Shown: piece after piece, positions 27,411 to 30,207 of the stretch
Layout: each line of letters opens with the position of its first letter
Position numbering within the stretch: the first letter of the stretch is position 1
NCBI GenBank assembly: GCA_030038215.1
Contig: JASHPI010000142.1
Span: forward strand, 1 to 42,523
Length of the DNA stretch: 42,523 nt
Direction of reading: 5' to 3'
From: Vulcanimicrobiota bacterium
Lineage (GTDB): Bacteria; Vulcanimicrobiota; Vulcanimicrobiia; Vulcanimicrobiales; Vulcanimicrobiaceae
Translations under genes and position numbers: made by a program
Notes under the pieces: model-generated
The model's input: only the letters and a program-made list of their open reading frames with translations
What the model was told of the DNA's origin: nothing
Databases searched by the model: none

Positions 27411-27504
27411 GTTCCCCTTTCGCTACCGACTATCGGTGGTTCGAGCCTTTGCCGGGCCGGCAAGCTGTGCCTCTTGTGCGCTCCGGAAGGATTCGATTGC
27501 GACG

Positions 27505-28266
27505 GTGGTTCATTCGCGCATACGATTGGAAGCAAAGCGTAAAGACGAAGCCAACCGCCTGGACGGGCGGCGCGCACTGCAGCGCCGCAAAAAGCCGACG
27601 ACCCCGTTTCTCTGGCCCGACTGGATCATTCAGCGGGAGATCGCGCGGCAAGTTCGCGCCGCCCTGGCAGAGGTAGGGCGCGGGCGGATTCTCGACGTCG
27701 GATGTGGCGAGAAGCCGTTCGAGGTCTATCGCCCGGCGATCGCTACCGCCTGGATCGGATTCGACGTGCCCGAGAATTCGACCGCGGACGTTCAGGGATA
27801 CGCCGAAGCGATGCCGTTCGAGGCCGCAGCGTTCGACACCATCGTCTGCACGGAGATGCTCGAACACGTTCCCGAGCCGGCGCGCATCGTCGGCGAAATC
27901 GCTCGCGTGCTTAAGCCGGGCGGCTACGTGATATTGACGACGCCGCTCTACTTCCCGATCCACGAGGAGCCGTACGACTTCTTTCGCTTCACTCCGTTTG
28001 GACTGCGGCACTTATTCGAGCAGGCGGGCTTGGAGATCGCGCGCATCGAGCCGATGGCGGTCGGCTTCCGGATGGTCGCGCTTGCGGTGAATACGTGCTT
28101 CTTCAATTTTGGAACGCGCCTGCCGTGGGGGCATTCTCGAGTGGTCAAGGCGCTCTTCACCCCGATTTACGCCGCCTCGAACCTGACCGCATGCGCGATG
28201 TCGGCGATCTTTCCGTCGAACAGCAACGCGGTCGGAACATTCGTCCTGGCCCGCAAACCCGGATAG
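27505..28266 (+). CDS. Class I SAM-dependent methyltransferase
   Basis: A protein of about 253 residues with the SAM loop ILDVGCGEKPFEVY, the acidic FDVPEN, CTEMLEHVPEPARIVGEIARVLKPGG and a C-terminal part with a hydrophobic tail (FTPIYAASNLTACAMSAIF). It resembles methyltransferases acting on sugars or lipids at the membrane; substrate unknown. GTG 27505 is chosen, with GGAAGGA about 14 nt upstream; GTG 27436 is the longer alternative, without a ribosome site. Divergent from the SRPBCC-like gene. Confidence 0.85.
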   Translation: MVHSRIRLEAKRKDEANRLDGRRALQRRKKPTTPFLWPDWIIQREIARQVRAALAEVGRGRILDVGCGEKPFEVYRPAIATAWIGFDVPENSTADVQGYAEAMPFEAAAFDTIVCTEMLEHVPEPARIVGEIARVLKPGGYVILTTPLYFPIHEEPYDFFRFTPFGLRHLFEQAGLEIARIEPMAVGFRMVALAVNTCFFNFGTRLPWGHSRVVKALFTPIYAASNLTACAMSAIFPSNSNAVGTFVLARKPG

Positions 28267-28314: not shown

Positions 28315-28328
28315 TTAGGCATACCTAA
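28315..28328 (+). promoter_or_regulatory. DtxR/MntR-like palindrome abutting the oxidase-transporter start
   Basis: TTAGGCATACCTAA, with arms TTAGG/CCTAA around 4 nt, ends one base before the ATG at 28330. TTAGG/CCTAA arms are typical of operators of the DtxR/IdeR/MntR metalloregulators, though the spacing is shorter than in the IdeR 19-mer. A TACAGT -10-like box (28304-28309) would put the transcription start inside the palindrome. Metal-responsive repression is inferred from sequence and gene content. Confidence 0.55.
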
Positions 28329-28329
28329 A

Positions 28330-30207
28330 ATGTCAGCGCCGCGAGCTCGTCTACTTCCGGTTCTCATTGCCTGCGCGCTGCTGGCGTTCGCCGCCCCGCC
28401 GCTGGTCGCGTGGGCCGACGCTGACGACGTGTCGTCCGCGAACTCGACCTCGCTTGGCTTGCAACCGATCCAGGGACCGATCCCCCTCACCACGCCGGCG
28501 CCCGGTGAGTCGCCGGTCTTCCGGCGCTCTGACGGCGCCTATCAGGCCATCCCCGAAGTGCATGGGCGAACCAAAATCTTCCACCTCGTTGAACGTGCGG
28601 CGCCATGGACGCTCAAACCCGGGTTGACGGTGATGGCGAACACTTATAACGGCGTCGTACCAGGGCCGGCTCTGGTCGTCCATCAAGGCGACACCTTGGT
28701 GCTCGACTATACGAACGACGAAGCGACGCCCGACTCGATCCATCTGCACGGCATTCACGACATTCCGGTCACGATGGACGGCGTCGCCGGCATCTCGCAG
28801 CCGCTCGTTCCGAACGGCGGCCATTTCGTCTACCAGTTCGTCGCCGACCAATCCGGGACGTTCCTCTATCACACGCACGACAACGAAGCGAGGCTCGATT
28901 CGGGCCTCTACGGCGCGATTATCGTCGAGCCGGCGCATCCGCGTCCGATCGAGCGTAGCCTCGCGCACGATTTTCTGGAAGTGATCTCGTCCTGGCAGAT
29001 CCGCAGCGGCTCCGAAAACGAGTTCACGCTCAACGGCAAGGAGTATCCCGCGACGCAGCAGCTGAACGTGCGCTCGGGCGACCGCTTTCGGATTCGCTGG
29101 ATCAACATTTCGGGCGAAGAGTTTCACACCATGCATACGCACGGGCACTACCAGCAGATCGTGGCGCGCGATGCGGCTCCCCTCAACTATCGTGACATCG
29201 AGGACACGGTTCTGGTCGCGCCCGGTCAGCGCGTCGACGTCGTCGTGAAAGCAGATGCGAAGCCCGGCACGTGGCTGGTCCATTGCCACGTCATGGACCA
29301 TGTCGAAGATGCCAACGGGATGCCGAGCGGCCTCATTACCGCGATTCACTACGCGGGAACGCCGAACGTGCTGACGGCGATGCTGCCCGCGATGCAGTCC
29401 ACGATGCCGGCCAGCAATCGCGGCGGGCTGAGCTTCTGGATGACGGTCCTGCTGGGCGCGATCGCCGGGTTCACGATTTTTCTAGGCTTGCCGATCGCCC
29501 GCGCTCAGCGGCTCTCGGCGCAGACCGTCGCGCTGCTCAACGCGCTCGCGATCGGCATCCTGCTCTACCTGGTAGTCGAGATCGCGCAGAACGCGATCGT
29601 TCCGATCTCGCAGGGCATCAACGCATGGCATACCGGCGGCGGCGCGTTTCCGGCCGGGCTGATCGCAGTCTTTATCATCGGCCTGCTGCTCGGGCTGGTC
29701 GGGCTGGGCAGCGCCGCCTCCTACTTCTCCCGTAGGGCTGCGATGCACGCCGAAAATCCAATTTTGCTCGCTGCGATCATCGCCATCGGCATCGGCGCGC
29801 ACAACTTCGGTGAAGGTTTGGCGATCGGCGCGTCGGCGGCGTCGGGCGCGACCGCGGTGGCATTGGCGCTGATCGTCGGCTTCGGCCTACACAACGCGAC
29901 CGAGGGCTTCGGCGTGGCGGCACCGCTGGTCGGGCGCGTGGTTCCTTCGTGGGCGCTGATCGGTCTGGCGGGACTGATCGCCGGCGGACCGACCTTTATC
30001 GGTACGATTGTCGGTTACAGCTTCTACTCACCGACGCTCTCGGTGTTCTTTCTCGCGATCGCCGTCGGCGCGTTGGTCTTCGTGATCGGCGAGCTCTGGA
30101 CGGTTCTGCGGCGCACCGGGCTTACCGCATTCGTCACCGCGACGATGTGCGCAGGCTTTCTGATCGCCCTCGCGACCGAGCTCTTTCTCGACATGAACGG
30201 CGGTTAG
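28330..30207 (+). CDS. Multicopper oxidase fused to a ZIP-family metal transporter
   Basis: A 625-residue protein. A signal peptide (about 1-29) precedes a two-domain multicopper oxidase (about 85-340) with all four copper motifs: HLH (138, 140), HTH (181, 183), HxxHxH (266, 269, 271) and HCHxxxH (318-324), with a possible T1 Met331. About eight membrane spans (368-620) follow, with ZIP motifs HNFGEGLAIG (His491, Glu495) in TM4 and HNATEGFG (His521, Glu525) in TM5. ZIP proteins import Zn, Fe or Mn with an extracytoplasmic N-terminus, so the oxidase would sit outside, feeding the pore. The domains are clear; the metal is unknown. No ribosome site near the ATG. A DtxR-like palindrome abuts the start. 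Confidence 0.9.
   Translation: MSAPRARLLPVLIACALLAFAAPPLVAWADADDVSSANSTSLGLQPIQGPIPLTTPAPGESPVFRRSDGAYQAIPEVHGRTKIFHLVERAAPWTLKPGLTVMANTYNGVVPGPALVVHQGDTLVLDYTNDEATPDSIHLHGIHDIPVTMDGVAGISQPLVPNGGHFVYQFVADQSGTFLYHTHDNEARLDSGLYGAIIVEPAHPRPIERSLAHDFLEVISSWQIRSGSENEFTLNGKEYPATQQLNVRSGDRFRIRWINISGEEFHTMHTHGHYQQIVARDAAPLNYRDIEDTVLVAPGQRVDVVVKADAKPGTWLVHCHVMDHVEDANGMPSGLITAIHYAGTPNVLTAMLPAMQSTMPASNRGGLSFWMTVLLGAIAGFTIFLGLPIARAQRLSAQTVALLNALAIGILLYLVVEIAQNAIVPISQGINAWHTGGGAFPAGLIAVFIIGLLLGLVGLGSAASYFSRRAAMHAENPILLAAIIAIGIGAHNFGEGLAIGASAASGATAVALALIVGFGLHNATEGFGVAAPLVGRVVPSWALIGLAGLIAGGPTFIGTIVGYSFYSPTLSVFFLAIAVGALVFVIGELWTVLRRTGLTAFVTATMCAGFLIALATELFLDMNGG

Follow-up and report, generated by a model that had tools for sequence, protein, structure and literature searches.

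At one locus of the DNA analysed here, a stretch of 42,523 nucleotides that we call the window, a multicopper oxidase (MCO) and a ZIP metal permease are encoded in a single frame, which raises two questions: whether the two really form one protein and, if so, which metal it handles. From the N- to the C-terminus, the product consists of a signal peptide, a two-domain MCO, a linker and an eight-helix ZIP permease (Table 1). This layout had been proposed in the original prediction and is borne out by the open reading frame, the Pfam matches and an AlphaFold2 model. The model, a monomer computed with 52 homologues as input, has a mean pLDDT of 83.9 and consists of a cupredoxin pair up to residue ~345, the linker, and eight membrane helices at residues 369-622.

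Table 1 Features of the MCO-ZIP fusion locus, in window coordinates
Feature	Position	Strand	Basis or remark
Palindrome TTAGGCATACCTAA, predicted operator of IdeR/DtxR type	28315..28328	.	one base before the start codon
MCO-ZIP fusion gene	28330..30207	+	uninterrupted ATG-to-stop frame, 625 aa + stop
Signal peptide, residues 1-29	28330..28416	+	hydrophobic core and AWA/DADD cleavage site, judged by eye from the sequence
Two-domain multicopper oxidase, residues ~62-345	28513..29364	+	Pfam, PDB sequence and fold matches (2zwn, 3g5w), model
H138-L-H140, T2/T3 copper ligands of domain 1	28741..28749	+	invariant in 52
H181-T-H183, T3 copper ligands of domain 1, without T1 cysteine	28870..28878	+	invariant in 52
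HTMHTHGH of domain 2: H266 (T1), H269 and H271 (T2/T3)	29125..29148	+	invariant in 52
H318-C319-H320 and H324: T3 ligands and T1 copper site	29281..29301	+	C319, H320 and H324 invariant; H318 in 51/52
Linker between oxidase and permease, residues ~346-366	29365..29427	+	variable in the alignment; pLDDT low at 361-363
ZIP permease, eight helices, residues ~367-622	29428..30195	+	Pfam, alignment to 5tsa, model
TM4 metal motif H491-N-F-G-E495	29800..29814	+	H491, N492 and E495 invariant in 52
TM5 metal motif H521-N-A-T-E525	29890..29904	+	H521, N522, T524 and E525 invariant in 52
E588 in TM7	30091..30093	+	invariant in 52

The source genome is a MAG broken into 241 contigs, which would favour an assembly artefact that joins two genes. 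The identical join, however, is present in 65 separate genomes, some of them in very few contigs (e.g. G042), and this rules out the artefact, so that the fusion stands as the genuine one-piece protein that had been proposed. The full-length fusions share 44-96% identity and belong to three families of the class Eremiobacteria, among 149 genomes of the phylum that were searched; they amount to 76 copies, some from duplicated genomes, and reduce to the 52 distinct sequences used for alignment. All 52 are unbroken near residues 345-365, where a stop or frameshift had been named as the result that would speak against the fusion. Broken frames were seen in a few MAGs only: one TAG in G124, a frame break within the ZIP part in G127, and a run of N in the oxidase of G120. 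With the ZIP part as the query, no complete unfused copy was found in the class. A scan of genome contigs gave 21 loci, 20 in records titled Eremiobacterota or Eremiobacteria and one in an unclassified MAG. The host phylum, Eremiobacterota, is uncultured, and the record titles place several homologues in palsa, bog and other soils. Viral or mobile spread was rejected, as the viral contigs scanned contained no relative of the fusion.

The oxidase half is matched by Cu-oxidase_3 at residues 95-202 (E 1.9e-31) and by Cu-oxidase_2 at residues 227-326 (E 6e-26). Its eight trinuclear-site (T2/T3) histidines are at positions 138, 140, 181, 183, 269, 271, 318 and 320, and the only exception among the homologues is a His318 to Gln change in one sequence. 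The T1 ligands are His266, Cys319 and His324, with Met331 probably serving as the axial ligand. The T1 site is confined to domain 2, and domain 1 has HTH in place of the HCH of a T1 domain. Classified by these residues, the oxidase is a two-domain multicopper oxidase of type B, that is, one with two cupredoxin domains, eight histidines and T1 in domain 2. Oxidases of this type are homotrimers whose subunits share copper sites at their interfaces. In a Foldseek search with the whole model, the oxidase half groups with the two-domain enzymes 2zwn and 3g5w; the best 50 matches were exclusively oxidases, and the search therefore speaks to the oxidase fold and not to the ZIP fold. These two-domain laccases or blue copper oxidases are the closest solved oxidases in both sequence and fold, but they have no permease, and by alignment the T1 site of 2zwn is in domain 1 while that of the fusion is in domain 2. 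In two genomes, G118 (on a single contig) and G123 (on contig 430), we also observed MCOs of the fusion type that end in a single membrane helix where the fusion has its ZIP (loci L100:5932-7149 and L102:3818-5569); G123 additionally holds a ZIP-fused copy that is cut by the contig end.

The permease half scores below the curated Pfam cut-off for ZIP (PF02535; residues 479-583, E 6e-5, 22.8 bits against 35.1), which indicates divergence, and it can be aligned from end to end with the solved Bordetella ZIP 5tsa (E 0.0065). On sequence grounds, it is a divergent member of the ZIP (SLC39) family. The metal residues originally assigned, His491/Glu495 and His521/Glu525, are correct and are invariant in the 52 non-redundant homologues, together with Asn492, Asn522 and Glu588. 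The fusion shares its eight helices, the HNxxEG motif of TM4 and the HNxxEG-like motif of TM5 with the Bordetella ZIP (5tsa) and E. coli ZupT, but those two have the TM6 glutamate and no oxidase, and the fusion is the opposite on both counts. Indeed, the TM6 glutamate of the second metal site (E240 of BbZIP) is replaced in every MCO-linked ZIP that was aligned; this glutamate is a feature of canonical ZIPs that is not mandatory in all ZIPs. Positive charges are found on the loops after helices 1, 3, 5 and 7 (RAQR, SRR, GR and RR) and the remaining loops carry none, which by the positive-inside pattern argues, from sequence and model, for a ZIP with both its N- and C-terminus outside. An N-out ZIP behind a signal peptide would put the oxidase outside. 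This location had been deduced from topology in the original prediction, and it is supported by the signal peptide, the loop charges and a fusion of reverse order in Deinococcus, described below. The fusion as the sole zinc importer of the cell was rejected, as ZnuA is present in 102 and Nramp in all 117 of 117 genomes of the class.

The first regulatory evidence on which metal is involved comes from the DNA in front of the gene. When upstream DNA was aligned within the genus, we found a conserved palindrome ending just before the start codon. The pattern TTAGGNNNNCCTAA matches the window exactly once (28315-28328; 0.01 expected), and it lies upstream of 38 of the 52 distinct fusions as an exact match and of 6 more with one mismatch (44/52), compared with 2 of 644 control segments; the other 8 fusions have no box. 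The same 14-bp consensus has been proposed for iron-dependent IdeR/DtxR regulators in a study of IdeR (PMC8464063). Across 16 whole genomes, exact boxes numbered 27 compared with 24 for the reversed control pattern, so there is no enrichment in number and the case for an operator rests on position: 11 of the 27 are in front of the fusion or its operon, and another 9 are in front of the gene of a secreted protein of ~360-370 aa, the Cyc2-like protein described below. No such box was found at the single-helix MCO genes without a ZIP (G118 and G123), which indicates that the box goes with the ZIP fusion.

A candidate regulator is encoded next to some of the fusions. At all 12 loci read in the family f3, the gene immediately before the fusion, on the same strand and often overlapping it, belongs to the DtxR family (10 by ORF comparison and two by PF02742, G026:C33 and G018:C13). 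Seven of these loci have an exact box 530-590 bp ahead of the reference point in the fusion, farther upstream than the start region of the fusion itself. The closest solved relative of the f3 regulator is M. tuberculosis IdeR (E 1.5e-26), and the protein keeps EACR-EH (Cys102, Glu105 and His106), while two ancillary-site histidines are lost. The DtxR family is represented in 107 of the 117 genomes of the class. DtxR-family proteins can sense manganese as well, and the pair Asp8/Glu99 versus Met10/Cys102 distinguishes the manganese sensors (MntR) from the iron sensors (DtxR). In the genomes compared, the paralogues adjoining Nramp have MntR-like Asp and Glu, and the others have IdeR-like Met or Glu together with Cys. 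Taken together, the sequence evidence points to the fusion being an IdeR/DtxR-type regulated gene, and the predicted operator and regulator would lend independent support to the metal-import role that had been proposed from the domains. A conserved operon partner was not found in the window's own genus, where the neighbours are lineage-specific only.

In addition to the fusion, a Cyc2-like cytochrome-porin gene has this box upstream at 22 of 30 loci (L115:2557-3669, L128-L157). The Cyc2-like protein is secreted, is 360-372 aa long, and has an N-terminus of AIPxFAHQY, CxxCH and PxL, near the Cyc2 motif AXPXFAR[Q/K][T/Y]; this motif is exact in one sequence, and its Arg is His in most. In the model, the protein has 16 strands and matches general porins. 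Cyc2 itself, a known Fe(II) oxidase, has the motif AXPXFAR[Q/K][T/Y], CXXCH, PXL and a 16-strand barrel, and is usually at least 400 aa long (PMC8406198). The shared box suggests that the fusion and the Cyc2-like gene form a small iron regulon, in which the Cyc2-like protein could serve iron uptake rather than energy metabolism. The window's own genome contains no close copy of the Cyc2-like gene (best E 9.7e-12). Its second exact box (L114:2477, G000:C125:5676) is near a HiPIP gene and not near a cytochrome-porin gene.

We also found the combination of oxidase and ZIP in other groups. In plasmid searches, members of the same ZIP subfamily lie directly downstream of an MCO gene, often with a 4-nt overlap, and such unfused pairs occur in Deinococcus, Rubrobacter, Arthrobacter, Rhodococcus, Nocardia, Peribacillus, cyanobacteria and haloarchaea, where they are annotated merely as 'metal transporter' and 'multicopper oxidase domain-containing protein'. 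The pairs of Deinococcus, Actinomycetota, Cyanobacteriota, Bacillota and haloarchaea resemble the fusion in having a ZIP of the same subfamily without the TM6 glutamate and an adjoining MCO; they differ from it in that the genes are separate, the T1 site is in MCO domain 1 instead of domain 2, and the ZIP has an extra N-terminal membrane and outer domain. Two exact boxes precede the pair of Deinococcus QL22, and the weak two-mismatch matches at other unfused pairs were discounted. The taxonomic spread of single chains with oxidase and ZIP, a check that had been suggested at the outset, covers the class Eremiobacteria and, in reverse order, one Deinococcus. This ZIP-MCO fusion (L053:3560-5371) is on a plasmid of Deinococcus sp. 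KNUC1210 within a heavy-metal cluster, and its MCO is still outside; its HCH reads QCH, so that one T3 ligand may be missing. In Mycolicibacterium, a ZIP was found without an MCO neighbour. A maximum-likelihood tree joins the Mycolicibacterium ZIP and the Deinococcus fusion with the fused ZIPs in one group (98/95) and sets the ZIPs of the pairs apart in another (90/91); both groups are far from the canonical ZIPs, whose long branches leave the root uncertain. That one ZIP subfamily associates with two types of MCO, and is fused in two different orders, argues for a functional coupling of the two proteins.

Such pairs have a precedent in ammonia-oxidising archaea, where gene pairs of MCO1 and a ZIP permease (NVIE_000600/NVIE_000590) have been proposed to take up copper jointly (PMC7785015, PMC7819960). 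As compared by its published description, the archaeal pair is like the fusion in that an MCO and a ZIP permease form one proposed uptake system, but it consists of two genes and copper is the proposed metal, whereas the fusion is one chain with iron-type regulation. The Fet3-Ftr1 system of yeasts, which had been taken as the nearest known logic, couples a ferroxidase to an iron permease, as is proposed for the fusion. Its permease belongs to another family than the ZIP of the fusion, however, and the unfused archaeal pair, with further pairs in five other groups, is closer, so this part of the original prediction was not supported as stated. FTR1 (PF03239) had no match in 117 genomes of the class. 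In the open-licence literature, we found no paper on an MCO-ZIP fusion, on Eremiobacterota MCOs or on DtxR-type control of MCO or ZIP; thus, MCO and ZIP gene pairs were already known in archaea, while for the one-chain fusion and its DtxR-type control no published report was found in that literature.

We consider that the fusion may be an iron-regulated importer of the inner membrane to which an oxidase, most likely a ferroxidase, is tethered on the periplasmic side, a reading to which we give about an even chance. When iron is scarce, an IdeR/DtxR-type iron-dependent repressor would leave the operator and the fusion would be made, along with the outer-membrane Cyc2-like cytochrome-porin, which under the same operator would form the outer part of the response. 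Iron would then reach the mouth of the ZIP and be imported by it, and the oxidase tethered there, with O2 as the electron acceptor, would act on Fe(II) or on competing Cu(I). Fe(III) might then pass into the ZIP, in the manner of Fet3-Ftr1, or the oxidase might do no more than guard the site. Known ZIPs transport divalent ions and are not known to carry Fe(III), which weakens the direct analogy. Prior oxidation of Fe(II) would therefore hinder import, unless this ZIP is unusual, as the missing TM6 glutamate may indicate. In this scheme, we infer the iron substrate, repression rather than activation, the ferroxidase activity and the hand-over from oxidase to ZIP. A bolder version is rather unlikely in our view: an O2-driven iron importer in which the product of the oxidase is passed directly to the TM6-Glu-less ZIP, which is fed by a Cyc2-like porin serving uptake, all under one iron-dependent repressor.

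Zinc or copper is less likely to be the metal because the regulation is of the iron/manganese type. The alternative that survives best, although we think it unlikely, is a manganese importer, in which a DtxR-family regulator would sense manganese, the ZIP would carry Mn(II) and the oxidase would remove competing Fe(II) or Cu(I). It draws on the unfused pairs, five of which have a DtxR-family gene beside them with MntR-type Asp and Glu, and one of which, in Deinococcus, is near Nramp, and it is likelier for those pairs. In Eremiobacteria, by contrast, the regulator of the fusion is IdeR-like (Met10/Cys102-type), a separate MntR-like paralogue goes with Nramp, and the three Nramp-linked loci that were read contain no exact box. 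Copper ranks next and is likewise improbable; here the oxidase would convert Cu(I) to Cu(II), either feeding the ZIP or keeping Cu(I) off its metal site. The archaeal MCO1 and ZIP pairs do rise under copper limitation (PMC7785015), and several plasmid pairs and the Deinococcus fusion are among heavy-metal resistance genes. DtxR-type regulation, however, is not a copper response, the conserved neighbours in Eremiobacteria include no copper regulator or chaperone, and no Met-rich copper segment was found in the oxidase of the fusion.

The oxidase could also act as a laccase on phenolic or other organic ligands that bind iron outside the cell membrane, and the ZIP would import the iron so freed. 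Organic matter binds iron in palsa, bog and other soils from which several homologues come, and laccases are among the nearest solved relatives, but two-domain MCOs of this kind vary in substrate and we regard this as quite unlikely. Still more improbable is a respiratory role, in which the cytochrome-porin and the oxidase would pass electrons from outside Fe(II) to O2 and the ZIP would be an anchor or a side function: the co-regulated gene is like that of the Fe(II) oxidase Cyc2, and Cyc2-like genes reported earlier in Eremiobacterota were interpreted as Fe(II) oxidation (PMC8357290), but the IdeR-type box predicts expression under iron scarcity and the invariant metal residues indicate that selection maintains the ZIP as a transporter.

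With these findings, the loose idea of archaeal MCO and ZIP genes working together, perhaps on copper, becomes a testable system that comprises one chain across a bacterial class, a chain of opposite order in Deinococcus, and neighbours with a different oxidase type in five other groups. The iron-type switch and the fusion would point to an unrecognised iron uptake route. Should the Cyc2-like gene prove to be part of a response to iron scarcity, some of the Cyc2-like proteins that are counted in environmental genomes as markers of iron-oxidising metabolism may instead serve iron acquisition.

Several observations concern the neighbourhoods of these genes. A methyltransferase-like gene (window 27436-28266) is on the same strand 66 bp upstream of the fusion gene; it is absent there in a 96% identical relative (L002) and looks like a lineage-specific insertion. 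At four loci, a gene for a NiCoT-like nickel/cobalt transporter is a few genes from the fusion, at -4 in L073 and L074 and at +4 in L003 and L008. The unfused pairs are often followed by a Rieske protein, and in Salarchaeum a plastocyanin-like protein was seen (L064, L066, L067, L068 and L069); these are possible electron partners of the oxidase. Plasmid 3 of Variovorax sp. RA8 encodes a further membrane-domain fusion (L057:1903-3870), in which DUF4396 precedes a multicopper oxidase; CueR and a metal P-type ATPase are encoded alongside, and DUF4396 may be a metal-linked membrane domain.
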